A stretch of DNA of 28,758 nucleotides from a virus: IMG/VR virus record IMGVR_UViG_3300010354_000442, positions 1 to 28,758 of that record; one strand, given 5' to 3'. Below the pieces are notes generated by a model, which ran no database searches, was not told the origin of the DNA, and saw nothing but the letters and a program-made list of their open reading frames with translations. A program made the position numbers and the translations under genes. Shown piece by piece: positions 6,163-28,758 of this stretch. Within the stretch, counting starts at the first letter, position 1. Each line of letters starts with the position of its first letter.

Positions 6163-6299
6163 GCTGCCAGCGCTTTTAGAAATACTTCTCGTTGTGTGGT
6201 CCTGGTTTCACTTTCAGTTGCCCACGGCGCGCACCGCGGCCACTGGTTGAAATGGTTCATGGCCATCGGCGCGAAGGCGCGGGGGGTGTAGTCACGCAC
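6135..6299 (-). CDS. small phage protein, unknown function
   Basis: The protein reads VRDYTPRAFAPMAMNHFNQW and continues to a C-terminus ending in ARNINLGH, about 54 residues. The GTG at 6299 was chosen because GGAG lies seven bases upstream and the overlap with the preceding gene is only 8 bases. An ATG at 6344 would force a 53-base overlap. The ending is the same as that of the protein at 2858-3154, through the 54-bp repeat. Confidence 0.55.
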   Translation of the reverse strand: MRDYTPRAFAPMAMNHFNQWPRCAPWATESETRTTQREVFLKALAAARNINLGH

Positions 6300-15183: not shown

Positions 15184-17162
15184 GCAACGTTGCGCACATC
15201 ACGCCGCACCTGCGCAACGTCGAAGCCCCTGCCGCCATCCGTGACCTACCAGCGTGGGTGCTGTGGCGCTTCGAGGCGGTGCCAGGGGGCGGCAAGCCCC
15301 GCAAGGTGCCGTACTACGCCAACGGCGGCAAGCGCCACGGCGAGCAGGGTGGGCCCAAGGACGTGGTTAACCTGGTCACGTTCGACGCGGCGAAAGCGGC
15401 TGCTGCGCGCCGGGGCTTTGACGGCGTGGGCTTCGCCGCACTGCCTCAGTTCAACATTTGCGCGCTGGACTTCGACAACTGCATCACCGACGGGCGCATT
15501 CACCCCCAGGTCGAGGCGCTGCTGGCCGACAGTTACGCCGAGTACAGCCCCAGCGGGCAAGGCATCCGGGTGTTTTTTAAGGGTAACTTGGGCAACGGCA
15601 AGGCCCTGCGCGACGCGGACTACGGCATGGAGTGCTTCAGCAGTCGCGGGTTCGTGACATTCACCGGCAACACCTTGGACATCACTGAGTTGCTGGGCAA
15701 CACCGACACCGTGGTGCCGTTGCCAGATGAGGTCTACCGGTTGCATGCCGAGCGATTCAAGCGCCCAGACCGTGAGCCAGTGGTGCCTGCCAGCGGCGAG
15801 CCGTCCGGGTTGAGCGCGGCGCAGATTGAGCGTTGTCTGGCCGCTTTGCCGCCTGACCTGCATTACGACGACTGGTTAATGGTCGGTATGGCTATCCACT
15901 GCGAGACCCGCGGCGAGGGCTTCGAGATGTGGGAGGAGTGGAGCCAGCGGTCCAGTAAATACAGTTCGCGCGAGTACAACGAGGAGCGCTGGCGCAGCTT
16001 CGGCAAGGGCGGGGGGCTGCAGGTCACGGGCCGCAGCTTGCTACACCTGGCCAATGAACATGGCGCTGGTATCAGCTTGACCGCCCCAGCCAGCCCCGAG
16101 GAGTTCGAGGCGATGGTCGGTGATGTCCAGAAAATGGACACCACCACGCCCCCGCGCTACCAGTTTGAGCCCGTGCACACATTCGCCAGCGCCACGGCCC
16201 TGCCGTGGGTTATCAAGGGCGTGCTGCCCAAGGCGGGGCTGGCCGTGGTGTACGGGGCCAGCGGGTCGGGAAAGTCGTTTGCTGTGCTGGACATGAGCCT
16301 GGCCGTAGCCCAGGGCATTGACTGGCGCGGCAAGCGCGTCAAGCAGGGCAGGGTGGCGTACATCGCAGCCGAGGGTGCCGACGGCTTCCGAAAGCGCTTG
16401 GCAGCCTACGCGCTGGCCAAGGGTGTGGACTTGGCAGGGGTGCCAATGACGGTACTCAACGCCGCGCCCAACTTGCTGGAGAAGCAGGACGCCGTGGACG
16501 TGGTTAAGGGCATCCGTGCCAGCGGTGGGGCCGACCTGATTATCGTGGACACGTTCGCCCAGACCACGCCGGGAGCGAACGAGAACGCGGGCGAGGACGT
16601 AGGCAAGGCGCTGGGCCATTGCAAGCGCGTTCACGAGGCCACGGGGGCCATGGTTGTGCTGATCCACCACAGCGGCAAGGACGCCAGCAAAGGCGCGCGG
16701 GGCTGGTCGGGCTTGCGCGCCGCGTGCGATGCCGAACTGGAGGTGGTGCGCGAGCCCACGGGGCGCTATCTGCGCTTGTCAAAGAGCAAGGACGGCGAGG
16801 ACGGGCTGGAGTGGGGCTTCGACCTGGAGGTGGTGCAGTTGGGGGTGGATGAGGATTTGGACCCCATCACCAGTTGCGTGGTCATTGAGGCTGCGCTACC
16901 AGTCAAGGGCGGCGTTGCCAGCCGCAAGATGGGCCCTGTCGAGGCGGTAATCATTGAGGTGGTCAACGAGATAGCCAGGGCCCAGACCGAAGGCATTGAG
17001 GTCGGGCCAGTGATTGCGGAGGCTGTGCGCCGCCTTGATCCGCCAGCCGACGGCAAGCGCGACACGCGCAAGCAACGGGTGCGCAGGGCGCTGGAGGCCC
17101 TTTGCAACGGGGACGACGCGCCGTATTGGCTTGGGGATGATGGGTGCATTGCGGTTTGCTGA
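15180..17162 (+). CDS. bifunctional primase-helicase (prim-pol, PriCT-2, RepA-like ATPase)
   Basis: This 660-residue replication protein has three regions. The first is a prim-pol-like N-terminus with the catalytic DFDN at 97-100 and SPSGQGIR at 123-130. The second is a PriCT-2 linker domain at about 210-295. The third is a RecA-fold RepA/AAA_25-type ATPase with Walker A GASGSGKS at 359-366 and Walker B LIIVD near 453-457. A conserved HHSGKDASKGARGWSG motif follows. It should prime and unwind DNA for the family A polymerase. The ATG at 15180 overlaps the upstream stop by ATGA. The candidate origin lies directly downstream. Confidence 0.9.
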   Translation: MSNVAHITPHLRNVEAPAAIRDLPAWVLWRFEAVPGGGKPRKVPYYANGGKRHGEQGGPKDVVNLVTFDAAKAAAARRGFDGVGFAALPQFNICALDFDNCITDGRIHPQVEALLADSYAEYSPSGQGIRVFFKGNLGNGKALRDADYGMECFSSRGFVTFTGNTLDITELLGNTDTVVPLPDEVYRLHAERFKRPDREPVVPASGEPSGLSAAQIERCLAALPPDLHYDDWLMVGMAIHCETRGEGFEMWEEWSQRSSKYSSREYNEERWRSFGKGGGLQVTGRSLLHLANEHGAGISLTAPASPEEFEAMVGDVQKMDTTTPPRYQFEPVHTFASATALPWVIKGVLPKAGLAVVYGASGSGKSFAVLDMSLAVAQGIDWRGKRVKQGRVAYIAAEGADGFRKRLAAYALAKGVDLAGVPMTVLNAAPNLLEKQDAVDVVKGIRASGGADLIIVDTFAQTTPGANENAGEDVGKALGHCKRVHEATGAMVVLIHHSGKDASKGARGWSGLRAACDAELEVVREPTGRYLRLSKSKDGEDGLEWGFDLEVVQLGVDEDLDPITSCVVIEAALPVKGGVASRKMGPVEAVIIEVVNEIARAQTEGIEVGPVIAEAVRRLDPPADGKRDTRKQRVRRALEALCNGDDAPYWLGDDGCIAVC

Positions 17163-17506: not shown

Positions 17507-17743
17507 ATGAAGAAACCGCTGTCAATTAACGAACTGGGCCGACGCATTGGGGAATCGCACCCTGGCGCGAAGCTCACCGACGCCGAGGTGGAACTGGTGC
17601 ACGAACTGCTGGAAGGCGGCATGTCGTTCGCCAAGGTCGCGGAGAAGTTCAACGTGTCGAAGTCGTGCATTCAGAAAATAGCGGATGGCTCGCGGCGGGC
17701 GCAGCGCGTATCCCGTACCGTGTGGGTATCCGTGAGAACATAG
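17507..17743 (+). CDS. small helix-turn-helix protein, possible late regulator
   Basis: This 78-residue protein has a clear HTH at about 36-62 (ELLEGGMSFAKVAEKFNVSKSCIQKIADGSRRAQ), resembling resolvase/Hin-type or sigma region 4-like DNA-binding helices. AAAGGG lies upstream of the ATG at 17507. It is the first gene after the candidate origin, and its 3' end contains the first copy of the late promoter motif. A role in late transcription or packaging recognition is possible but unproven. Confidence 0.75.
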   Translation: MKKPLSINELGRRIGESHPGAKLTDAEVELVHELLEGGMSFAKVAEKFNVSKSCIQKIADGSRRAQRVSRTVWVSVRT

Positions 17744-17757
17744 CACGCTGCTAAATT
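17726..17757 (+). promoter_or_regulatory. late promoter copy 1, before the small terminase gene
   Basis: GTATCCGTGA (17726-17735), 16 bases, then TAAATT (17752-17757). TGC precedes the -10 box, and a partial operator (CATAGCA, then TGCTAAA) overlaps it at 17739-17755. Seven bases separate the -10 box from the terminase ATG at 17765, which has no ribosome site, so the mRNA should be leaderless. Confidence 0.75.
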
Positions 17758-17764
17758 CAAGCAA

Positions 17765-18274
17765 ATGGCACATCACCACTTTGACTGGAAACCCGCTTTC
17801 CTGGCTGCGCTCAAGGCGTACCCGGTGGTGGCGCATGCGTGCGCAGCGGTGGGCATCGAGCGCAGCACGGCCTACCGCGCGCGCGAGTCCAACGAGGTGT
17901 TCGCCCTCGCATGGGACGACGCGCTGGAGGACGGTATCGACCGCGCCGAGAAAGAGGCTTTCCGACGTGCGGTGACGGGCTACGAGGAGCCTGTTATCGA
18001 CAAGGGGCGCCTGGCCTACGCATACGAGCGCTACGTGGACGAGGAGGGCGCGGAACACTATTGCCCCGTGCTTAACGACAAAGGCCAGCCCGTGCCCCTC
18101 ACGGTGCGCAAGCATAGCGACGCCCTGCTGGCGCTGATTCTCAAAGGGCGGCGCAAAGCTGTGTACGCCGAGCGCAAGGAAGTGACCGGGGCGGACGGCG
18201 CCGCGTTGCCCGCCGCGCAAGTAATCATCGCCACCGGCGTGCCCAACGCCGACGACTTCGGAGACCTAGCATGA
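17765..18274 (+). CDS. terminase small subunit
   Basis: This 169-residue protein has an N-terminal HTH (AFLAALKAYPVVAHACAAVGIERSTAYRARESNEVFALAWDDALEDGIDRAEKEAFRRAV, about 11-69). It continues with KHSDALLALILKGRRKAVY, a standard layout of phage TerS proteins that recognise the packaging site. It sits just before the large subunit, separated by a 34-aa ORF. No ribosome site precedes the ATG, in agreement with the late promoter placed only seven bases upstream. Confidence 0.88.
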   Translation: MAHHHFDWKPAFLAALKAYPVVAHACAAVGIERSTAYRARESNEVFALAWDDALEDGIDRAEKEAFRRAVTGYEEPVIDKGRLAYAYERYVDEEGAEHYCPVLNDKGQPVPLTVRKHSDALLALILKGRRKAVYAERKEVTGADGAALPAAQVIIATGVPNADDFGDLA

Positions 18275-18375
18275 CCATCGGGGAATTTATCGACGTGGCC
18301 ACCACCGTGCTGGTGGCGGCGCTGTACGGGGGTGCAATGGTTGGGCTGTGGGTGCACCTCAAGCACAAGGAATGA
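18271..18375 (+). CDS. 34-aa single-TM peptide between terminase genes
   Basis: The ATG at 18271 overlaps the small terminase stop (ATGA) and the stop overlaps the large terminase start (ATGA), so the frame is tightly kept. The peptide starts MTIGEFIDVATT and has one hydrophobic helix (VLVAALYGGAMVGLWV), then HLKHKE. Its position and double overlap argue for a real gene, perhaps also serving to couple translation of the terminase pair. The function is unknown. Confidence 0.65.
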   Translation: MTIGEFIDVATTVLVAALYGGAMVGLWVHLKHKE

Positions 18376-19709
18376 GCGCGATTAGCCTGGGCTACCAGCC
18401 CCGCGTGTGGCAGCAGGAATGCCACCTTAACCGCAAACGCTTCACGATCCTGGCGCTGCACCGACGTGCGGGCAAAACCGAACTGGCCATCGCCGAACTG
18501 GTGGACAAGGCGCTTCGCTTCGCAAAAGACCTGGGCCTGTTTTTCTACGTTGCGCCGCAACTCAAGCAGGCAAAGACGGTCTCATGGTTGCGTCTGAAGG
18601 CCCGCGTAAGCCCGTTGATCGCCGCTGGCATGGTGGAAATCAACGAGTCCGAACTGTGGGTACGCTTTAAAACCAACGGGGCCATGATCCGCGTTTACGG
18701 GGCCGACAACCCTGACGCTATGCGCGGCGTGCGCTTGGACGGCGTGGTGATTGACGAAATCGCGCAGATCAAGCCCGAGGTGTGGGACGAGGTGATACAG
18801 CCCGCGCTGGCCGACCGCATGGGTTGGGCCATGTTCATTGGCACGCCCAAGGGCGTCAACCTGTTTTCCAAGCTGTTCTTCGAGGCCAAGCACAAACCCG
18901 ACTGGCACGCCGCGCTGTACACGGTCTATGACACCAACTCGCTGGACCCCGACGAGGTGGAGCGCCAGCGACGTGAACTGTCCGACGAGTCGTTCAGGCG
19001 CGAGTACCTGTGCGATTTCAGCGCAGCGGGTGAGGATCAACTTATCAGCTTGTCGCTGGCCCGCGCAGCCACCGAGCGCCACTTGCGCAGTGACGCCTAC
19101 GACTTCGCGCCCCGCGTGCTGGGCGTGGACCCGGCGCGCTTTGGCGACGACCGCAGCGTGATATTCCCACGCCAAGGGCTCTACGCCGCGCCGCCCCGTG
19201 TGTTCAAGGGCATCGACAACATGACGCTGGCCGACCGCGTTGCGCAGGAGATTCAAGCGTTCAAGCCCGACGCCGTGTTCATTGACGCGGGCAACGGGGG
19301 TGGGGTTATCGACCGCCTTCGCCAACTCAACTACGACGTGACCGAGGTCAACTTCGGTGGCATCCCAAACTCAGCGCGCTACATCAACAAGCGCGCCGAG
19401 ATGTGGTTCGACATGCGCGACTGGCTCAACGCAGGGGGCTGCATCCCCAAAAGCAACGAATTGTTGCAAGATTTGGCCGCACCCACGTTTCGCTTTACAC
19501 CCGCCGACAAAATCCAGCTTGAAAGCAAAGACGACATCAAGGCGCGCATCAAGATGAGCCCCGACCTGGGCGACGCGCTGGCGTTGACGTTCGCGTACCC
19601 CGTGCACCGCAACAACAACGTGGAGTCACAGGCCCGTGCGCTTGGCATGCCCGTTATTGACACTGGCGTGAGCGCGGTCGTGAACTACGACCCATACGCC
19701 AGCATGTAG
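18372..19709 (+). CDS. terminase large subunit
   Basis: This 445-residue packaging motor has Walker A RRAGKT at 31-36, Walker B VVIDE at 125-129 and a coupling motif FIGTPKG at 155-161. The C-terminal RNase H-like nuclease domain has VLGVDPARFGDD at 249-260, a second acid in VFIDAGNGGG near 304-313, and a DLGDALALTFA motif near the end. All expected motifs are present. The ATG at 18372 forms an ATGA overlap with the TM peptide; an in-frame start at 18348 is less likely. Confidence 0.95.
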   Translation: MSAISLGYQPRVWQQECHLNRKRFTILALHRRAGKTELAIAELVDKALRFAKDLGLFFYVAPQLKQAKTVSWLRLKARVSPLIAAGMVEINESELWVRFKTNGAMIRVYGADNPDAMRGVRLDGVVIDEIAQIKPEVWDEVIQPALADRMGWAMFIGTPKGVNLFSKLFFEAKHKPDWHAALYTVYDTNSLDPDEVERQRRELSDESFRREYLCDFSAAGEDQLISLSLARAATERHLRSDAYDFAPRVLGVDPARFGDDRSVIFPRQGLYAAPPRVFKGIDNMTLADRVAQEIQAFKPDAVFIDAGNGGGVIDRLRQLNYDVTEVNFGGIPNSARYINKRAEMWFDMRDWLNAGGCIPKSNELLQDLAAPTFRFTPADKIQLESKDDIKARIKMSPDLGDALALTFAYPVHRNNNVESQARALGMPVIDTGVSAVVNYDPYASM

Positions 19710-19716
19710 CCCCGGC

Positions 19717-19748
19717 GTATCCGTCAAGCGCGCGGCAGTGCCCACAAT
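19717..19748 (+). promoter_or_regulatory. late promoter copy 2, before the 64-aa gene and portal
   Basis: GTATCCGTCA (19717-19726), 16 bases, then CACAAT (19743-19748). Here the mRNA would have a short leader of about 20 bases with AGGAG before the ATG at 19776. Confidence 0.7.
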
Positions 19749-19775
19749 GCGGGAAATTGACACAGGAGCGCCCGC

Positions 19776-19970
19776 ATGTGCTTGCCATCCGCACCGAAGA
19801 TTGACACACCGCCACCGCCGCAAATGGCGAAAGAGCCCGACACGGCCATGCTCAAAAGCGACGCCCGGCGCAACCGTAGCGCCATGACAGGCGGATCGCT
19901 GCTCACAAGCCCCACCGGCGTGGCCAACGCCGCGGCATCCACCGGTCGCACCACGTTGCTGGGCGGTTAA
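19776..19970 (+). CDS. small conserved phage protein upstream of the portal
   Basis: This 64-residue protein starts MCLPSAPKIDTPPPPQ and ends with GGSLLTSPTGVANAAASTGRTTLLGG. Proline-rich starts with a C-terminal SLLTxPxGV...TLLG motif are typical of a small protein placed before head-tail connector genes in podoviruses, probably a virion component. AGGAG lies eight bases before the ATG. The role is not known. Confidence 0.75.
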   Translation: MCLPSAPKIDTPPPPQMAKEPDTAMLKSDARRNRSAMTGGSLLTSPTGVANAAASTGRTTLLGG

Positions 19971-19982
19971 CGCACACGCCTT

Positions 19983-21668
19983 ATGGACCAGCCCATCACC
20001 AAGCGCCAGCGCATCCTGTCGCGCAAGTCCGCGCTGTGGACAGAGCGCTCCTCGTGGGTCGCACACTGGCGCGACATTAGCGAGTACCAACAGCCACGGG
20101 CGGGCCGGTTCATTGCTACCGACCGCAACCGTGGCGAGCGCCGCGACAATCGCATCCTGGACAACACCGCCGTGTTTGGTGCCCGCACGCTGGCCGCTGG
20201 CCTGATGTCGGGCATGACCAGCCCCGCGCGCCCGTGGTTCAAGCTGGAGATTCAGGACAAAGACCTCATGGAGTCGGCAGCGGTCAAGGAATGGCTGCAC
20301 GACAGCGCTACGCTGATCCGCGCCATCTTCGCAAGCTCCAACACCTACCGCGCCTTGCACTCGATGTACCAGGAGCTCGGGCTTTTCGGCACGGCCTCCA
20401 GCATCGTGCTGCCCGACTTCGACAACGTGCTGCACCACTACCCACTGACCATCGGTGAGTACGCCTTGGGTACGAACGCCAAGGGTGAAGTGGACACGCT
20501 GGTGCGCGAGTTCCAGATGACCGTGGGCCAGGCGGTCGAGCAGTTTGGTGTCGATAACGTCAGCATGTCCATTCGCAACCTGTGGACTAAGGGCAGTTAC
20601 GACGCATGGGTGGACGTGGTGCACATGATCCAGCCCCGGCGCGACCGCGACACGCGCAAGATGGACGGCAAAAACAAACGGTTTGCGTCAATCTACCTCG
20701 AACCCGGCAAAGATAATTTCGACAAGTTTTTGAGCGAATCGGGCTTTGACCGATTCCCCGCGCTGGCCCCCCGCTGGGAGGTCACGGGCGGCGACGTGTA
20801 CGGCACCAGTCCGGGCATGGAGTGCCTGGGCGACGTGAAGCAGTTGCAGCACCAGCAGCTTCGTAAAGGGCAGGGCATCGACTACCAGGTCAACCCCCCG
20901 CTGGTGGTGCCAACGCGGTACAAGGAAGCGCAGAAAAGCCGACTGCCGGGTGGCGTCATGTACGTGGACGGGCAGGGCGCACAGCAGACCGTGCGCAGTG
21001 CGTTCGACGTGAACCTGAACCTACAGCACTTGGGCCTGGACATTCAGGACGTGCGCGAGCGCATCCGCGCGGCGTACTACGCCGACCTGTTCATGATGCT
21101 GGCCAACGACAACCGCAGCGGCATCACCGCTACGGAAGTGGCAGAGCGCCACGAGGAAAAGCTGCTGATGCTGGGCCCCGTGCTGGAGCGCCTGCACAAC
21201 GAACTGCTGTCCCCGCTGATCGACACCGCGTTCGACTACGCCGAGCGCGCGGGCATCCTGCCCGAGCCCCCGCCCGAACTTCAGGGCCTCGACCTGAAGG
21301 TCGAATTTATCAGCGTGCTGGCACAGGCACAGCGCGCGGTGGCCGCCAGTGGCGTGGACCGCCTGCTGGGCACCGTGGGCCAGTTGGCCGGGCTCAAGCC
21401 TGAAGTGCTGGACAAGGTGGACTTCGACCAAGTGGTTGACGACTACGCCGAGATGTACGGAGTCAATCCTAAAATCATCATCCCCGACGACAAAGTGGCA
21501 GCACTGCGCGAGCAACGCGCGCAGCAGATGGCCGCGCAGCAGGCCGCCGCCGCGGTGCCCGCCATGGCCGACACGGCAAAGACCGTTGGCGAGGTGGACG
21601 CGCAGGGCGTGCAGGACGTTATGGCATCGCTTCAGGGCTACGGCACTGTGAACGGCGCGATGGTGTAA
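19983..21668 (+). CDS. head-tail connecting (portal) protein
   Basis: This 561-residue protein matches the podovirus head-to-tail connecting family (T7 gp8-like). It has an N-terminal helical region, LDNTAVFGARTLAAGLMSGMTSPARPWFKLEI near 59-91, and the core VTGGDVYGTSPGMECLGDVKQLQHQQLRKGQGIDYQVNPPL near 264-304. YYADLFMMLANDNRSGITATEVAERHEEKLLMLGPVLERLHNELLSPLI lies near 365-413. Twelve copies form the portal ring at the capsid vertex. The C-terminus is Ala/Gln-rich. It lies 12 bases after the small 64-aa gene. Confidence 0.93.
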   Translation: MDQPITKRQRILSRKSALWTERSSWVAHWRDISEYQQPRAGRFIATDRNRGERRDNRILDNTAVFGARTLAAGLMSGMTSPARPWFKLEIQDKDLMESAAVKEWLHDSATLIRAIFASSNTYRALHSMYQELGLFGTASSIVLPDFDNVLHHYPLTIGEYALGTNAKGEVDTLVREFQMTVGQAVEQFGVDNVSMSIRNLWTKGSYDAWVDVVHMIQPRRDRDTRKMDGKNKRFASIYLEPGKDNFDKFLSESGFDRFPALAPRWEVTGGDVYGTSPGMECLGDVKQLQHQQLRKGQGIDYQVNPPLVVPTRYKEAQKSRLPGGVMYVDGQGAQQTVRSAFDVNLNLQHLGLDIQDVRERIRAAYYADLFMMLANDNRSGITATEVAERHEEKLLMLGPVLERLHNELLSPLIDTAFDYAERAGILPEPPPELQGLDLKVEFISVLAQAQRAVAASGVDRLLGTVGQLAGLKPEVLDKVDFDQVVDDYAEMYGVNPKIIIPDDKVAALREQRAQQMAAQQAAAAVPAMADTAKTVGEVDAQGVQDVMASLQGYGTVNGAMV

Positions 21669-21686
21669 CGATTTGCGACTTCAACC

Positions 21687-21744
21687 CCTAGCTCTTAGAG
21701 CTAGGCCGGGCCGCCCTTTCGCAAGATTGGACGGCTTTTCTTTT
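21687..21744 (+). terminator. terminator region after the portal gene
   Basis: There are two hairpins. The first is a perfect CCTAGCTC/GAGCTAGG stem at 21687-21705 with a three-base loop and no T run. The second has stem GCCGCCC/GGACGGC with one mismatch (21710-21716 / 21729-21735), followed by TTTTCTTTT. The second is a plausible intrinsic terminator. Late promoter copy 3 starts four bases beyond. Confidence 0.65.
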
Positions 21745-21747
21745 GCC

Positions 21748-21779
21748 GTATCCGTGACGTTGTAGCCCACCGATAACAT
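21748..21779 (+). promoter_or_regulatory. late promoter copy 3, before the Bbp19-like gene
   Basis: GTATCCGTGA (21748-21757), 16 bases, then TAACAT (21774-21779). The -10 box covers the first ATG at 21778, so transcripts from here should begin near the GTG at 21787, giving a leaderless mRNA. The sequence after the -10 box aligns with that of copy 4 (GCGC, then GTG or ATG, then GCAACC). Confidence 0.7.
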
Positions 21780-21786
21780 GCGGCGC

Positions 21787-22104
21787 GTGGCAACCAACAC
21801 CGACCCGACAGATTTGCACCGACAGGAGCGCGACGCCGAAGCCGACGAGGCAGTGGCGCGCGAAACCCGACGGCGCGAATTGGAGGATTTGCGTTGGTTG
21901 CTGGGCCACCCGCAGGGCCGACGTGTCGCAGCACGTTTGTTGGAGGAAGCCGGGGTGTTTCGCACATCGTTTAACCATAGCGGCAGCGTTATGGCTTTCA
22001 ACGAGGGGCGCAGGCACGTCGGGCTTTTCATTACCAGCGAACTGATGGAAGCGTCAGCCGACGGGTATCTCAAGATTCTGAAAGAATTTAAAGGCCAAGC
22101 ATGA
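21787..22104 (+). CDS. Bbp19-like phage head-region protein
   Basis: This protein of about 105 residues has LEDLRWLLGHPQGRRVAARLLEEAGVFRTSF and FNEGRRHVGLFITSELMEASADGYLKILKE. This is the pattern of the Bbp19 family from Bordetella phage BPP-1, which lies between portal and scaffold genes. The GTG at 21787 is preferred because the ATG at 21778 overlaps the promoter -10 box, but readthrough mRNA could use that ATG. Neither has a ribosome site. Its stop overlaps the next start by ATGA. Confidence 0.8.
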   Translation: MATNTDPTDLHRQERDAEADEAVARETRRRELEDLRWLLGHPQGRRVAARLLEEAGVFRTSFNHSGSVMAFNEGRRHVGLFITSELMEASADGYLKILKEFKGQA

Positions 22105-22691
22105 CCGACCCCGCAGCAAGTACCTCCACACCAGACACCGACGGTGGGAACGCGACACCTGAGACCGTGCCCGCTGGCACCCCGCCTGCACCCGCAGCCG
22201 AGCCGACGACGCCGCCCGCAGAGCCTGCAAAGGCCGAGCCCGTTGCGCCTGAAAGCTACGACCTGAAGATGCCGGAGGGTGTCGAACTCGACAAAGTGGC
22301 AGCCGACGAGTTCACCGCCATCGCCAAGGAACTGAAACTCGATCAACCGACAGCGCAAAAGCTGGCCGACGTAGGCGCCAAGATGGCCCAGCGTCAAGCT
22401 GAAGCCCATGCAAAGCTGGTTGAGTCGTGGACTGAGCAAGTCAAAACCGACAAAGACATCGGCGGCGACAAGTTCACCGAGAACCTGGCCGTGGCCCGCA
22501 AAGCGCTCGAAACCTTCGGTACACCCGAACTGCGTGACGTTTTGAACGCCACCGGCCTGGGCAACCACCCCGAGGTGATTCGTGCGTTTTACAAAGCAGG
22601 CAAGGCTATCAGTGATGACTCGTTTGTCAAAGGCGCACAGGGTGGCGGCGAGACAGACATCGCCCGCAAACTTTTCCCATCCATGAACTGA
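22101..22691 (+). CDS. scaffold/protease-like capsid assembly protein
   Basis: This 196-residue protein has a disordered Pro/Ala/Thr-rich N-terminus (1-50). A helical part follows (FTAIAKELKLDQPTAQKLADVGAKMAQRQAEAHAKLVESWTEQVKTDKDIGGDKFTENLAVARKALETFGTPELRDVLNATGLGNHPEVIRAFYKAGKAIS). This layout, directly before the major capsid gene, is that of podovirus scaffold or so-called protease proteins. No catalytic triad is evident, so scaffold is the better guess. Confidence 0.75.
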   Translation: MTDPAASTSTPDTDGGNATPETVPAGTPPAPAAEPTTPPAEPAKAEPVAPESYDLKMPEGVELDKVAADEFTAIAKELKLDQPTAQKLADVGAKMAQRQAEAHAKLVESWTEQVKTDKDIGGDKFTENLAVARKALETFGTPELRDVLNATGLGNHPEVIRAFYKAGKAISDDSFVKGAQGGGETDIARKLFPSMN

Positions 22692-22705
22692 AAGGTACTT
22701 GAATC

Positions 22706-23698
22706 ATGCCCGCACTTTCCGCTAATAACCCCACGCTGTTGGACGTTGCACGACGCACCGACCCCAACGGCTCTATTGCATCCATCGTTGAACTGCTGAA
22801 CCAGACCAACGAAATCCTCGACGACATGACGTTCGTTGAGGGCAACCTGCCCACCGGCAATAAAACGACCGTTCGCACCGGCCTGCCTTCGCCAACCTGG
22901 CGCAAGCTGTACGGCGGCGTGCAACCCGGCAAGTCCACCACCGCGCAGGTCACTGACTCGTGCGGTATGCTGGAAGCCTACGCCGAAATCGACCGCGCAC
23001 TGGCCGACCTGAACGGCAACACCGCAGCGTTCCGCCTGTCCGAGGACACCGCCTACATCGAGGGCATGTCCCAGACCATGGCGCAAACGCTGTTCTACGG
23101 CAACGAAGGCACCACGCCTGAAGCCTTCACCGGCTTGGCCCCGCGCTTCAACAGCTTGTCCGCGCAAAACGCCGACAACATCGTGAACGCTGGCGGCACC
23201 GGCTCTGATAACACGTCAATTTGGTTGTGCGTGTGGGGCCCGCAGACTGGCTTTGGCATCTACCCGAAGGGTTCGCAGGGCGGGCTGTCGATGACCGACA
23301 AGGGCCAGGTGACCATCGAGAACGTGGACGGCGCAGGCGGACGCATGGAAGCCTACCGCACGCACTACCGCTGGGACGCTGGCCTGACGATCCGCGACTG
23401 GCGCTACTTCGTGCGCATCCCGAACATCGACGTGTCCGACCTTGATACCTTGGCCAACACCAAGAACCTGATCAACTGGATGATCGCCGCAAGCGAGCGC
23501 ATCCCTTCGTTTGGCAAGGGCCGCGCCTGCTGGTACGTGAACCGCACCATCCGCGAAAAACTGCGCTTCGGCATTTTGGAAAAGGTCAGCAGCAACCTGT
23601 CATGGGAAACCGTGGAAGGCAAGCGCGTTATGACTTTTGACGACATCCCGGTCAAGCGCGTAGACGCCCTGATCAACACCGAGGCCCGCGTGGTCTGA
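22706..23698 (+). CDS. major capsid protein (Gp7/Bbp17-like)
   Basis: This 330-residue protein starts LSANNPTLLDVARRTDPNGSIASIVELLNQTNEILDDMTFVEGNLPTG and contains LPSPTWRKLYGGVQPGKSTTAQVTDSCGMLEAYAEIDR. These are features of the Gp7-type major capsid proteins of BPP-1-like and related phages, which adopt the HK97 fold. AAAGG lies upstream of the ATG. It follows the scaffold gene and precedes the cement gene. Confidence 0.9.
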   Translation: MPALSANNPTLLDVARRTDPNGSIASIVELLNQTNEILDDMTFVEGNLPTGNKTTVRTGLPSPTWRKLYGGVQPGKSTTAQVTDSCGMLEAYAEIDRALADLNGNTAAFRLSEDTAYIEGMSQTMAQTLFYGNEGTTPEAFTGLAPRFNSLSAQNADNIVNAGGTGSDNTSIWLCVWGPQTGFGIYPKGSQGGLSMTDKGQVTIENVDGAGGRMEAYRTHYRWDAGLTIRDWRYFVRIPNIDVSDLDTLANTKNLINWMIAASERIPSFGKGRACWYVNRTIREKLRFGILEKVSSNLSWETVEGKRVMTFDDIPVKRVDALINTEARVV

Positions 23699-23718
23699 GC
23701 CTGAAAGGAACCTGAAAA

Positions 23719-24195
23719 ATGATCATCGACAAACGAAACGAGTTTTGCGACAACGTGTTGCTGAACACGGGTGCCGCTGGCACCTACCTGCTGGGCGACC
23801 AGATCGACCTCGTGTCTCCGGGTACTGTGGTTTCCCCCGGCCCCATGGGTACCGTTGACGAACTGTATTTGGTGATTCTGGCCTCGGTCGGCATCACCGC
23901 CGCGTCCGCCGGTACGGTGTCTTTCTCGCTGGCGTCTGACGACAGCGCGACTATCGCCACCAACGGCACGGCCACGGTGCATTTCACCACCCGCGCCTTC
24001 ACGACCGGCACGACCGCTATCCCCGCGGGTACGGTATTGGCCTGCGTGAAGCTGCCCGTGGGGTTCAATTACGAGCGTTTCCTGGGCATTCTCCAGACCA
24101 CCGGCACCACAGCCATCGCCGCTGGCCGTATCGACGCATTCCTCACGCCTGACCCGGCGCTGTGGGCTGCTTACGATAGCCCTCCTCAACTGTAA
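23719..24195 (+). CDS. Bbp16-like capsid cement protein
   Basis: This 158-residue protein starts MIIDKRNEFCDNVLLNTGAAGTYLLGDQIDL. It continues as Thr/Ala/Gly-rich beta strands (TVSFSLASDDSATIATNGTATVHFTTRAF...LPVGFNYERFLGILQTTGTTAIAAGRIDAFLT). It matches the Bbp16-type cement or decoration proteins encoded just after the major capsid gene. It probably stabilises the capsid surface. AAAGGAA upstream is the ribosome site. Confidence 0.85.
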   Translation: MIIDKRNEFCDNVLLNTGAAGTYLLGDQIDLVSPGTVVSPGPMGTVDELYLVILASVGITAASAGTVSFSLASDDSATIATNGTATVHFTTRAFTTGTTAIPAGTVLACVKLPVGFNYERFLGILQTTGTTAIAAGRIDAFLTPDPALWAAYDSPPQL

Positions 24196-24208
24196 TTGAG
24201 GTAAGCCC

Positions 24209-24436
24209 ATGAAAGTCATTGCGACCAAAATGGGCTTCTTCGGAAGCCTTCGCCAGCCGGGTGAATCCTTCGACGTGCCCGACGGGTCGAAGGCTTCCTG
24301 GTATGTGCCAGCAGACGCTGCGCCGAAGCAGGCCAAACCTGCCAAGGCCAAAGACGAACCGAAAGCTCTGAGCGAACTAGCTCGCGGTAACGGTAAGACC
24401 TTCAACGAGGTCCACGATAAAACCGACCTAGCCTGA
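24209..24436 (+). CDS. small conserved head-region protein, unknown function
   Basis: This 75-residue protein starts MKVIATKMGFFGSLRQPGESFDVPDGSKASWYVP, a compact beta-rich module I recognise from phage head regions. It ends in a Lys/Ala-rich tail (KQAKPAKAKDEPKALSE). GAGGT lies before the ATG. A strong terminator follows. Confidence 0.75.
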   Translation: MKVIATKMGFFGSLRQPGESFDVPDGSKASWYVPADAAPKQAKPAKAKDEPKALSELARGNGKTFNEVHDKTDLA

Positions 24437-24451
24437 CAAGGTGGCAACGAC

Positions 24452-24473
24452 AAACCCGCTTCGGCGGGTTTTT
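24452..24473 (+). terminator. strong intrinsic terminator after the capsid genes
   Basis: CCCGC (24455-24459), TTCG tetraloop, GCGGG (24464-24468), then TTTTT, with outer AAA/TTT pairs. It is a textbook rho-independent terminator. The next late promoter starts seven bases downstream. Confidence 0.92.
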
Positions 24474-24479
24474 CTTCGC

Positions 24480-24511
24480 GTATCCGTGTCGCGTCGGGTC
24501 TTACCTACACT
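24480..24511 (+). promoter_or_regulatory. late promoter copy 4
   Basis: GTATCCGTGT (24480-24489), 16 bases, then TACACT (24506-24511). Six bases separate the -10 box from the ATG at 24518, which lacks a ribosome site, so a leaderless mRNA is expected. The strong terminator upstream means this promoter must supply the following genes. Confidence 0.8.
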
Positions 24512-24517
24512 CCGCGC

Positions 24518-24874
24518 ATGGCAACCATCCAACCTACTACCACGTTTCCGTTTGAGACAAGCATGGACGTGGCTGTCACAACGTGGGCCGCTCTGCACGC
24601 CGACGACGACGGTGAACCCGTCCGCCTGGCCGTGTATTCGGACAGATCAATCCAAGTTGCTGGGGCGTTTGGCGGGGCCAGCGTAACCATTGGCGGCAGC
24701 AACGACGGGGCAACCTATCACGCACTGACCGGGACGGATGGCCAGACACTGACACTGACCGCAGGTGCTTTGCGCCAAGTGGTTGAGCTTCCCGTGTTTA
24801 TTAAGCCCCGAGTGTTCGGCGGTGACGGCACGACGGACATTACCGTCGTACTGGCTGGTAGAAAATCAATTTGA
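24518..24874 (+). CDS. beta-rich virion protein
   Basis: This 118-residue protein contains AVYSDRSIQVAGAFGGASVTIGGSNDGATYHALTGTDGQTLTLTAGALRQVVELPVFIKPRVFGGDGTTDITVVLAGRK. That is a beta-sandwich pattern seen in small phage structural proteins (SDRSxQVxGxFG...GSNDG...RPxxxGGDGTT). It is likely a decoration or tail-associated protein. The ATG directly follows late promoter copy 4 with no ribosome site. Confidence 0.75.
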   Translation: MATIQPTTTFPFETSMDVAVTTWAALHADDDGEPVRLAVYSDRSIQVAGAFGGASVTIGGSNDGATYHALTGTDGQTLTLTAGALRQVVELPVFIKPRVFGGDGTTDITVVLAGRKSI

Positions 24875-24883
24875 GGTATCAAC

Positions 24884-25282
24884 ATGGCTAACGCGATTTA
24901 TCCGAAATACAAGGAAGCGGTACTGACCAGCGCAGCCAATTCGTCGCTTACAGGTACGCTAAAGGCCGCCTTGGTCGATACTGGCGCCTACACGTACAGC
25001 GCCGCGCATGAGTTTCTATCTTCGTTAACGGGCGTCGTGGGCACGGCGCACACCTTGGTAAGTAAAAGCTACGCCGATGGCGTGTTCGACGCCGCTGATG
25101 TTACTTACCCAGCGGTCACCGGTAACAGCGTGGAAGCCATCGTTTTCTACATCGACACCGGCAACGCAAACACTTCGCGCCTAGTGGCTTACCTTGACAC
25201 CGGGTTCACCGGCCTGCCGGTCACGCCCAATGGTGGCGACATAACGGTCACCTGGAACGCGTCGGGCATCTTCGCTTTGTAA
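24884..25282 (+). CDS. virion structural protein
   Basis: This 132-residue protein (MANAIYPKYKEAVLTSA...LKAALVDTGAYTYSAAHEFLSSL...VEAIVFYIDTG...LPVTPNGGDITVTWNASGIFAL) matches a widespread phage structural family. These proteins show a conserved AALVDT..YTYSAAHEFLS and a C-terminal LPVTPNGGDITVTW. It is probably part of the tail or head surface. GAGGT precedes the ATG. Confidence 0.8.
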   Translation: MANAIYPKYKEAVLTSAANSSLTGTLKAALVDTGAYTYSAAHEFLSSLTGVVGTAHTLVSKSYADGVFDAADVTYPAVTGNSVEAIVFYIDTGNANTSRLVAYLDTGFTGLPVTPNGGDITVTWNASGIFAL

Positions 25283-25295
25283 GGAGGGGTAAGGC

Positions 25296-25706
25296 ATGGC
25301 AGACAACCTCGGATATACCCCCGGCGCGGGGGCAACCGTCGCCACCGACGAGGTGGCTGGCATCCACTACCAGGTAATCAAGCCCGCATTCGGGCCGGAT
25401 GGCGCCGTGCAACTGGTCAGTGAGGCCGCGCCGCTGCCCGTTGCGGACGCCAATAGCGGCAACCTGCTGTTGCGAATCTTGCAGATGCTGATGGCCCCTT
25501 TGGGGTACGACAAAAGCCTGCAACGGCAGCGCGGCACCGTGGTCGTCGAATCCGGCACGGTCACAACCGTTTCGACTGTGACAACAGTCACTACATGCAG
25601 CGCCGTCACCTCACTGAACAACCTGGACGGCTACATGGCCCGCATGCAGATTCTTGACACCAACCGCACCGCCTGGGCGCAGTGCGTGCGCGCTCGTATT
25701 ACCTGA
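25296..25706 (+). CDS. phage virion protein, unknown role
   Basis: This 136-residue protein starts MADNLGYTPGAGATVATDEVAGIHYQVIKPAFGPDGAVQLVSEAAPLPV, an opening I recognise in phage structural regions. A Val/Thr-rich strand stretch follows (VVVESGTVTTVSTVTTVTT). GGAGG precedes the ATG. It lies within the virion gene cluster; the exact role is unknown. Confidence 0.75.
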   Translation: MADNLGYTPGAGATVATDEVAGIHYQVIKPAFGPDGAVQLVSEAAPLPVADANSGNLLLRILQMLMAPLGYDKSLQRQRGTVVVESGTVTTVSTVTTVTTCSAVTSLNNLDGYMARMQILDTNRTAWAQCVRARIT

Positions 25707-25715
25707 GGTATCAAC

Positions 25716-27341
25716 ATGGCCAACACCTTTAAAAAAGTGATAGATCAAATGGTGTGGCGGCAAGTGCCGCCCATGCCCAACGCCCACGCCACAGCGGTCA
25801 GCGTGTGCAGCGACATGCGCAACGATGTCAGCCGCAACCCGTTCGTGTATCAACTGGTCAGCGCGGCCATTCTCAACCGCTACAACATCGTCACCAAGGG
25901 TTCGGCATTCGTTGTGAACCCCGCCCTGGGCGGTACGTTCGGCGCGGGCGCGGCATCGGCATTCGCCCCGTCGCTGGGCCTGGTGGGCACCATCGCAGCG
26001 GGGGCCACCTCAACCAGCGTCACGTTGACGACCGCACTGCCCACGGCGGTTGGATTGAACATGCTCGCCAATCGTGGCGGGTCGGGTGAATACGGCTTCA
26101 AGCTGCGCATCATCGACAACGGCGCTGGCGGCTCTGGTAAGACCGCAGAGCGCTATATCACCGGCAACACAGCAAGCACGACGCCTACCATCAACGTGCT
26201 GTCCACCTTCGGCTTCACTCCTGTGGCTGGTTCGCGGTATGAAATCATCGCTGGCCGCGTGATGATGCTGTCGGCGGGTGCTCTGGCAGCTACGTCCTGG
26301 CGGTCTTTCGAGGTGGCGTCCAACACGCTGGCCTCGATGACGCAGACCAACCTGCCCGCCACCATCGGCACGGATTCGAGTCTGATGGTGCTGGACGAGC
26401 AGTACGTTCCTTATGACTGCTCACCTGGCGACGGCATGGTCAAAGGTGCGTACAACTACGACACTGGCCTGGTGTCGCGGTATGCGTTGACTGCTACCGC
26501 CTCGGGCGCCAGCACGCTCACCGGGCAGGCCACGCTGGGCGACGCCGTGGTGGCGGCCAACGAGTACCGAAATTTCCAGATCCGCATTGTTGAGGATACG
26601 GTCAACGTCACGGCGGTAGGTCAGCGGCGCATCATTGCCAGCCACACCGCGGGGCCTTCGGCGGTCTATACCCTGGGCACCGCCTGGACGGTCACACCGA
26701 GCAGTAGCGCCAAGTTCGTCATTGAACTGCCGAACCTGATTTTGTTGCGCAGCACGGCCACCACCACGGTCTATGCCTACAACTACGGCGACGCGACCGT
26801 CAACAACGGCACCAACAACATCCCTGCAAACTCCTGGAGCACCACCTACTTCGGTGCGGCTCCTGCGGCCAACGCTGCGGGCGGCATGTGGATGCCGTCG
26901 TGGGGAATCCAGCCCGACGCAGCCCGCAATGCGCGGCATTCCATGTGCTACTTCTTCCGAGGCGGCGCGTCGACCCTGGACGTGCTGGACATTGCGGCCA
27001 GCATCACCGGCACATGGACCGGGGCGATCACCTATGACGGTTCCCCTGGTGCTTTGCCCGCCACGGGATCAAGCGGGTGCTACGCGCCGTTTGAGAACGA
27101 GGGGCGCATGTTCTACGCCAACCTGTACGTGGCCAGCGCCATTAGCCAGATTTACCGGTTTGACGTGCAAAACCGGGTGCTGGCCTTGTTCACGCCGACC
27201 GACTTTTTGCAATCAGGCGCTGCCGCAGTCGGTAACCGCATGGCCGCGTATTGCGCCATCGACGGCACCGACACTTACGACACGGTGTTTCTCCAGTCGC
27301 ATCTTTCAACCGTTGCTCAGGAAATGGTGGTCCTGGTATGA
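25716..27341 (+). CDS. large virion structural protein, beta-rich
   Basis: This 541-residue protein is dominated by Gly/Ala/Thr-rich beta strands, with MANTFKKVIDQMVWRQVPPMPNAHATAVSVCSDMRND at the start. Features include WNNP-less repeats of short strands, aromatic Tyr/Trp clusters (MWMPSWGIQPDAARNARHSMCYFFRGGASTLDVLDIAA) and a C-terminal FYANLYVASAISQIYRFDVQNRVLALFTPTDFLQ. A head fibre, tail sheath-like shell or propeller is possible; I cannot assign one. GAGGT precedes the ATG. It is coupled to the next gene by ATGA. Confidence 0.75.
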   Translation: MANTFKKVIDQMVWRQVPPMPNAHATAVSVCSDMRNDVSRNPFVYQLVSAAILNRYNIVTKGSAFVVNPALGGTFGAGAASAFAPSLGLVGTIAAGATSTSVTLTTALPTAVGLNMLANRGGSGEYGFKLRIIDNGAGGSGKTAERYITGNTASTTPTINVLSTFGFTPVAGSRYEIIAGRVMMLSAGALAATSWRSFEVASNTLASMTQTNLPATIGTDSSLMVLDEQYVPYDCSPGDGMVKGAYNYDTGLVSRYALTATASGASTLTGQATLGDAVVAANEYRNFQIRIVEDTVNVTAVGQRRIIASHTAGPSAVYTLGTAWTVTPSSSAKFVIELPNLILLRSTATTTVYAYNYGDATVNNGTNNIPANSWSTTYFGAAPAANAAGGMWMPSWGIQPDAARNARHSMCYFFRGGASTLDVLDIAASITGTWTGAITYDGSPGALPATGSSGCYAPFENEGRMFYANLYVASAISQIYRFDVQNRVLALFTPTDFLQSGAAAVGNRMAAYCAIDGTDTYDTVFLQSHLSTVAQEMVVLV

Positions 27342-27505
27342 ACATCAAAGACTTAATCCGCATCGTCAGCACCACGCTGGCGACCCTCAATTCCGCCAAG
27401 GCGACCGCTACGTCGCTTGGCGACCTGGACCGGATAGTCCAACTTGACGTCACCATTGAGGAAACACAGGCCACGCTGGCGTTACTGCGCAGCATGACGG
27501 AGTAG
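27338..27505 (+). CDS. 55-aa helical phage protein
   Basis: This short protein starts MNIKDLIRIVSTTLATLNSA and continues as Ala/Thr-rich helices ending in TIEETQATLALLRSMTE. The ATG at 27338 forms an ATGA overlap with the large structural gene. It may be a chaperone or minor component; no family is recognised. Confidence 0.65.
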   Translation: MNIKDLIRIVSTTLATLNSAKATATSLGDLDRIVQLDVTIEETQATLALLRSMTE

Positions 27506-27509
27506 CCCC

Positions 27510-27995
27510 ATGCTTTTGACCCTGCTCCAATCTGGCGGGGCTGGGTTTGGTGTCGTTCAGACAAGCCGGTTTGACAACGCACAGGCGTTTTACGGCGGCA
27601 CGGTCGCCCAACCCACCGGCACGCAGTCCGTCGTACAAACCAACCGGTTTGACAATGCGCAGGTGTTCTATGGCGGTGCGGTCGCCGCCGTGCGCGCCTT
27701 GGTGCAGTCCAGCCGGTTTGACAACGCCCAGACGTTCTACGGTGGCGGCGTCACGATTGCCCAGACTGTTACGCAATCTGGCGGGTTCAACAACGCCCAG
27801 ACGTTCTACGGTGGCGTCGTCACGATTGCCCAGGCTGTCATTCAGTCGGGCAGGTTTAACAACACACAGACGTTCTACAGCCACCGCGTTAGCAACCTAA
27901 AGTATTTCACCGAAGCCGAAATGCAGGAAATTTGCACATGGCTGAAAGAGAACTGCAGCACCACCCCGCCGCAGATTTGGCTGCGCCGCCGCTAA
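27510..27995 (+). CDS. virion protein with five FDNAQTFYGG-type tandem repeats
   Basis: This 161-residue protein carries five repeats starting near residues 15, 41, 64, 87 and 110, with consensus VxQSxRFDNAQTFYGGxVTIAQ and steps of 26, 23, 23 and 23 residues. A unique C-terminal part follows (VSNLKYFTEAEMQEICTWLKENCSTTPPQIW). Repeats with N-x-FY-x-x-x-V occur in many phage minor structural proteins and may form a beta-solenoid-like surface. GGAG lies seven bases before the ATG. Role unknown. Confidence 0.8.
   Translation: MLLTLLQSGGAGFGVVQTSRFDNAQAFYGGTVAQPTGTQSVVQTNRFDNAQVFYGGAVAAVRALVQSSRFDNAQTFYGGGVTIAQTVTQSGGFNNAQTFYGGVVTIAQAVIQSGRFNNTQTFYSHRVSNLKYFTEAEMQEICTWLKENCSTTPPQIWLRRR
27552..27893 (+). 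repeat. tandem 69-bp-class repeats in the FDNAQTFYGG gene
   Basis: Five related DNA units encode the protein repeats, most with the FDNAQ/FNNAQ and FYGG codons conserved at the nucleotide level (for example near 27717-27742 and 27784-27812). The first step is 78 bp and the others 69 bp. In-frame gain or loss of units is possible. Confidence 0.8.
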
Positions 27996-27996
27996 C

Positions 27997-28028
27997 GTAT
28001 CCGTCAAACCTGATGGCCTCCATAAACT
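27997..28028 (+). promoter_or_regulatory. late promoter copy 5, before the tail adaptor gene
   Basis: GTATCCGTCA (27997-28006), 16 bases, then TAAACT (28023-28028). The motif begins two bases after the stop of the repeat protein. The mRNA would have a leader of about 15 bases with CGGAG before the ATG at 28050. A CCTCCA/TGGAGG hairpin overlaps the -10 region. Confidence 0.78.
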
Positions 28029-28679: not shown

Positions 28680-28758
28680 TGGCAGTCAAAAACATTTGGC
28701 GCAGTTTCGCGGGCGGCGAGATTGCCCCCGAACTGGCGGGCCGCCTTGACCTGACCAA
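28679..28758 (+). CDS. 5' end of a tail nozzle-like structural protein (partial)
   Basis: The ATG at 28679 overlaps the adaptor stop. The visible part reads MAVKNIWRSFAGGEIAPELA followed by GRLDLT. An opening of SFAGGExxPELxGRxDL is typical of the large podovirus tail protein that follows the adaptor gene (nozzle or tail tubular B analogue). The rest is outside the window. Confidence 0.7.
   Translation, partial: MAVKNIWRSFAGGEIAPELAGRLDLT

Follow-up and report, generated by a model that had tools for sequence, protein, structure and literature searches.

At the middle promoters of phage T4, a phage protein recognizes a box that replaces the -35 element while the -10 element is still used (PMC7403470). 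The consensus of this box, to which MotA binds, is TGCTTtA (PMC9004378). Small phage activators of late operons are also known from P2 (Ogr) and Mu (Mor and C); Ogr, a zinc-finger protein, binds near -55, and the binding position of Mor/C is near -50. The sequence analyzed here, hereafter called the window, is the whole 28,758-nucleotide stretch of the IMG/VR record IMGVR_UViG_3300010354_000442, a 28.8-kb fragment of a BPP-1-like podovirus that stops where the record ends, at position 28758. The window carries a repeated two-part signal comparable to the MotA/AsiA system of T4 in that a phage-encoded protein is proposed to recognize a box standing in place of the -35 while the -10 is kept. The two systems differ in that the present block lies at about -38 to -29, late genes are served and the proposed activator is a 78-amino acid protein with a single helix-turn-helix (HTH). 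A further difference is the similarity of this protein, in both sequence and fold, to HTHs of the HTH_38/resolvase type and to the HTH portions of phage homing endonucleases. Identity with the MotA box was considered and rejected, the block of the window being GTATCCGT and not TGCTTtA. In contrast to the situation described for Ogr and Mor/C, the present block is located at -35 and the proposed activator is predicted to contain a single HTH domain.

The sequence GTATCCGT is present five times in the window, always on the plus strand, at positions 17726, 19717, 21748, 24480 and 27997, and forms a 10-nt block with the two bases that follow it. Searching the window for GTATCCGTSA with at most one mismatch returned 6 matches against 1.7 expected, a number reached in none of 100 shuffles. 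A hexamer starts exactly 16 nt past the 10-nt block in all five cases (TAAATT, CACAAT, TAACAT, TACACT and TAAACT). The first-pass annotation, made by a model from the letters of the window without database searches, had claimed five plus-strand copies with this spacing and was correct for each of them. The -10 pattern that it proposed, TANANT, fails for CACAAT and TAACAT and is replaced here by YANNNT, which fits the five copies. A sigma-70 scan for a TTGACA-like -35 placed 16-18 nt before a -10 detected no site at any of the five blocks, and no known RNA element was found between positions 16900 and 28758 of the window.

The five blocks are followed, in order, by terS, a small gene downstream of terL, the gene that comes after the portal, a gene of the virion region and a tail gene. 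All five predicted promoters are on the plus strand. The first (17726..17757; GTATCCGTGA-N16-TAAATT) ends 7 nt before the ATG (17765) of the terminase small subunit gene terS (17765..18274, plus strand; phrog_4044), which is predicted to be leaderless. The first-pass annotation had placed every copy at or in the gap before a late gene; this one falls within the terminal codons of the HTH gene (17507-17743), the 3' end of which it overlaps, and GTATCCGTG is read there as V-S-V. A near-copy of the block, GTATCCCGTA, is observed at position 17708, 18 nt ahead of it. The second promoter (19717..19748; GTATCCGTCA-N16-CACAAT) lies between terL and a 64-amino acid gene (19776), and its leader carries AGGAG before that gene. 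The third (21748..21779; GTATCCGTGA-N16-TAACAT) is separated by 7 nt from the GTG start codon (21787) of the phrog_528 gene that follows the portal. The fourth (24480..24511; GTATCCGTGT-N16-TACACT), whose block ends in GT and not in SA, is found 6 nt before the ATG at 24518 of a virion-region gene of unknown function, directly behind an intrinsic terminator made of a hairpin and a T-run (24452..24475, plus strand; z -4.1). The statement that two copies directly follow terminators is thus only partly confirmed, the case being clear at 24480 and weaker at 21748 (z -1.8). The fifth promoter (27997..28028; GTATCCGTCA-N16-TAAACT) precedes the phrog_394 tail gene (28050), and its -10 is flanked by a 10-nt inverted repeat, GATGGCCTCC/GGAGGGCATC.

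Relatives were collected by means of a portal protein search, the portal of the window being 58% identical to that of BPP-1. In the first set of 73 portal relatives, GTATCCGT was found in 18 loci, on the plus strand only and mostly at the same orthologous genes; GTGTCCGTG replaces it in most members of the clade. Whether the motif is dispersed over both strands and within genes was checked on ten clade genomes, consisting of nine larger relatives (40-47 kb) and the window, where GT[AG]TCCGT is present in 59 copies on the late strand versus 6 on the opposite strand. Copies followed by YANNNT at a spacer of 16 or 17 nt number 50 on the late strand versus 0 on the opposite one, the spacer being 16 nt in 45 cases and 17 nt in 5, and a -10 is rare at other distances. 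Because of the strand, the fixed spacing, the position at late genes and the conservation at orthologous genes, the proposal of a late promoter class in which the block stands in for the -35 is well supported by the sequence; promoter activity is not directly shown. A subclade formed by G006 and its relatives L019 and L021 displays a 17-nt spacer throughout. Across clade-A phages, the -10 hexamer is largely specific to the gene served (CACAAT for the small gene after terL, TACCAT for the fibre gene and TACGAT after the portal), as if promoter strength were tuned for each gene.

The motif belongs to a wider class, GT[GA][CT][ACG]C[GAT]T[GA], that includes BPP-1, with GTGCCCGTG ahead of bbp24, bbp19 and bbp9, Limnohabitans phage DC33 (GTACCCGTA), Caulobacter phage Jess A (GTGCGCATGA) and prophages of several proteobacterial genera. 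The 39-kb record of phage DC33 (L079, PQ492659.1) contains a tailed-phage portal, yet its taxonomy reads Inoviridae. When the Jess A portal was used as a query, two distant loci only were obtained. An unsupervised search was performed for 9-mers recurring within one locus with a -10 at 16 or 17 nt, the motif not being presupposed, and returned GT[GA][CT]NC[GA]T[AG] in many loci (e.g. GTGCGCGTA, GTGCACGTA and GTGCCCGTA), not in all of them. This finder, which operates locus by locus, misses loci whose own promoters differ among themselves, and the 9-mers that it returned for several loci, among them Jess A and the window, are chance ones. Across a collection of 223 sites, conservation is concentrated in the -10 and the nine bases of the block, which is partly a consequence of the search pattern; a G immediately ahead of the block is conserved to a lesser degree, as are, more weakly, a few other positions. 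Apart from these, the 16-nt spacer is close to background, and no separate conserved -35 element exists around the block in these sites.

The first-pass annotation had recognized neither the trans-acting factor nor the wider family of motifs nor the leaderless starts predicted here. The proposed late activator is the 78-amino acid HTH protein encoded at 17507..17743 on the plus strand. It is an ortholog of BPP-1 Bbp27, which occupies the same place beside terS in a phage provided with a cognate motif, GTGCCCGTG. Among non-structural genes, the HTH gene alone was detected in each of the 16 genomes compared; it was found in 170 of 286 loci, many of the others being short fragments, and adjoins terS in many of them. 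Pfam identifies HTH_38 and resolvase HTH domains in the protein. The AlphaFold2 model (mean pLDDT 84.8) displays three helices between two terminal strands, the third of which is the recognition helix (residues 52-60) and holds Q56 and K57, the proposed specificity residues. The matches retrieved by Foldseek are HTH domains, in BFVD mostly those of homing endonucleases; no match was obtained in the PDB at E <= 0.001. Bbp27 is annotated 'endonuclease' in NC_005357, a label that probably reflects similarity to endonuclease HTH domains, and neither a function nor a promoter role for this protein was found in the open-access literature searched. Upstream of the HTH gene, the non-coding segment 17163-17500 of the window is packed with direct and inverted repeats of the GCAACACGTGCAAC type, which could represent an operator array or an origin.

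The presence of sites follows that of the HTH gene. Among 125 long portal loci, the 94 that contain the gene average 1.93 sites, against 0.01 on the other strand, and 30 of the 31 without a detected HTH gene are devoid of any site. The sole exception, L065, contains the motif and no detected HTH gene; only 4.5 kb of sequence precedes the portal in this locus, and the gene might lie beyond the truncated end. Salmonella phage epsilon15 and related enterobacterial prophages share a homologous portal (about 48% identity). No match to the HTH protein was found in epsilon15, and those enterobacterial loci in which no HTH gene was detected have no sites either.

Covariation between the protein and the motif was analyzed using a motif template in which base 5 was left free. 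Calls were obtained for 113 loci; 57 of the 170 loci with an HTH gene received none, some of them possessing deviating motifs (e.g. L204 and L324). The HTH proteins were clustered at 90% identity, yielding 86 clusters. The HTH column tied most strongly to base 5 is residue 57 (z 17.9, reached in 0 of 300 shuffles), followed by residue 56 of the same helix (z 10.6). Residue 57 remains first after clustering at 75% and 65%, with the exception of one column without a defined score. In general, K, H or W is associated with C, D, G or S with G, and R mostly with A. As a control, the count was restricted to sites more than 150 nt away from the HTH gene, which excludes any effect of a promoter overlapping the 3' end of its coding sequence. 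Under this restriction, K/H/W is accompanied by C in 48 of 53 loci, D by G in 21 of 22, G/S/C by G in 15 of 17 and R by A in 9 of 12.

The loci are related, so raw covariation counts overstate independence. Closely related phages were also compared: among the 548 pairs with portals at least 70% identical and a different base 5, residue 57 is shared in only 24. Sibling phages with 81-93% identical portals change helix and motif together, as in L147 versus L225 (portals 93% identical), with helices SKWAIGRICRYERR versus PKSTVRDICTGRRR and motifs GTGCACGTAC versus GTGCGCGTAC. Two Cupriavidus prophages with 84% identical portals likewise have motifs GTGCACATAC versus GTGTCCTTAC, and their helices differ too. 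At least 20 changes of base 5 occurred along the portal tree. When independent pairs on this tree were scored for G versus not-G, 7.3 of 9 followed residue 57 and 0 went in the opposite direction (median p 0.016); the C-versus-A part of the code was not significant in this test.

The blocks are therefore interpreted, with high confidence, as the -35-replacing halves of dedicated late promoters driven by the phage HTH activator, a class proposed for the Rauchvirus (BPP-1-like) group. The motif, its spacing, strand and conservation, its co-occurrence with the HTH gene and the covariation of helix and motif are established by sequence comparison. Physical binding, activation rather than repression, late timing and start points are inferred from sequence alone, no transcript or binding data being at hand. 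The first-pass annotation had suggested an activator or altered sigma recognition; a phage-encoded activator, the 78-amino acid protein, is favored because the motif covaries with the recognition helix and is absent in long relatives without a detected HTH gene. In the proposed mechanism, the activator encoded just upstream of terS would use its third helix to bind the block at about -38 to -29 and would help the host RNA polymerase holoenzyme to use weak -10 hexamers on the late strand. It would replace or aid the contact made by region 4, in the same manner as MotA at the middle promoters of T4. The -10 lies 6-7 nt before the start codon in 143 of 287 sites, and the first transcribed base is therefore predicted to be at, or within about 2 bases of, the start codon. 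About half of the transcripts would thus be leaderless, starting at the start codon or 1-2 bases before it, and the rest would have a short leader; terS and the gene after the portal are the recurrent predicted-leaderless cases.

Three other explanations can be considered. A host factor, either an alternative sigma or a host activator, might recognize the block, the HTH protein acting elsewhere, for example in packaging. The location of the HTH gene beside terS in many loci is compatible with this view, and host factors do serve many phages. It is nevertheless considered very unlikely, given that base 5 covaries with the recognition helix of a phage protein, that the Cupriavidus prophages differ in both motif and helix despite their 84% identical portals, and that sites are absent from 30 of the 31 long relatives without a detected HTH gene.

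The HTH protein might also bind the block as a repressor or silencer of late genes. Small HTH proteins often repress, and an operator covering the -35 would occlude the polymerase. Against this reading, which is judged unlikely, the block replaces a recognizable -35 and the -10s are weak, as suits activator-dependent promoters; the sigma-70 scan moreover reported no promoter-like site at the blocks, and the 223 sites contain no separate conserved -35 around them. Finally, the signals could be promoters that depend on a sigma factor or a single-subunit RNA polymerase encoded by the phage, phage-specific conserved promoters being typical of T7-like phages. This possibility is considered highly improbable: two conserved elements separated by 16 little-conserved bases correspond to the geometry of a holoenzyme, and Sigma70_r2 was detected in 0 of 16 genomes while the controls were positive. 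The single-subunit RNA polymerase profile (PF00940) gave no match, but its controls gave none either. Activation by the phage HTH protein is retained as the preferred explanation.

A bolder reading is that Bbp27 represents an unnamed family of 78-amino acid single-HTH activators in which residue 57 sets base 5, protein and promoters having been jointly re-specified on repeated occasions and about half of the late mRNAs being leaderless. The balance of evidence leans slightly in its favor. The first-pass annotation knew of no named promoter class of this kind, and no description was found in the open-access literature searched either, which is weak evidence since that literature is incomplete. 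Systems of this kind are already known; what appears to be new is the family, its recognition code and the recurrence of leaderless late genes.

Inverted repeats were also observed at fibre-gene promoters of clade A and before bbp9 in BPP-1. In clade-A phages, a 7-13 nt inverted repeat flanks the -10 of these promoters and its right arm holds AGGAG (e.g. G001 17577, G002 28341, G009 42837, G010 25820, G011 41334 and G027 36005). In BPP-1 (L078, NC_005357.1), a 13-nt perfect inverted repeat, followed by TTTTT, flanks the -10 located before bbp9 at about position 6184 on the minus strand. As inferred from sequence alone, read-through RNA would fold or terminate at such a repeat, and RNA started at the promoter would lack the left arm.

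The proposed system constitutes a concrete candidate for the way in which late genes are turned on in BPP-1 and related phages. In BPP-1, the tail-fibre, mtd and diversity-generating retroelement genes lie downstream of the site that precedes bbp9. The set of activator-promoter pairs comes with a proposed specificity code of a single residue, and closely related phages offer a natural example in which an activator has changed along with several of its sites. Should the predicted leaderless starts be real, the gene after the portal would possess a conserved phage leaderless mRNA, as would terS in the window and several relatives.
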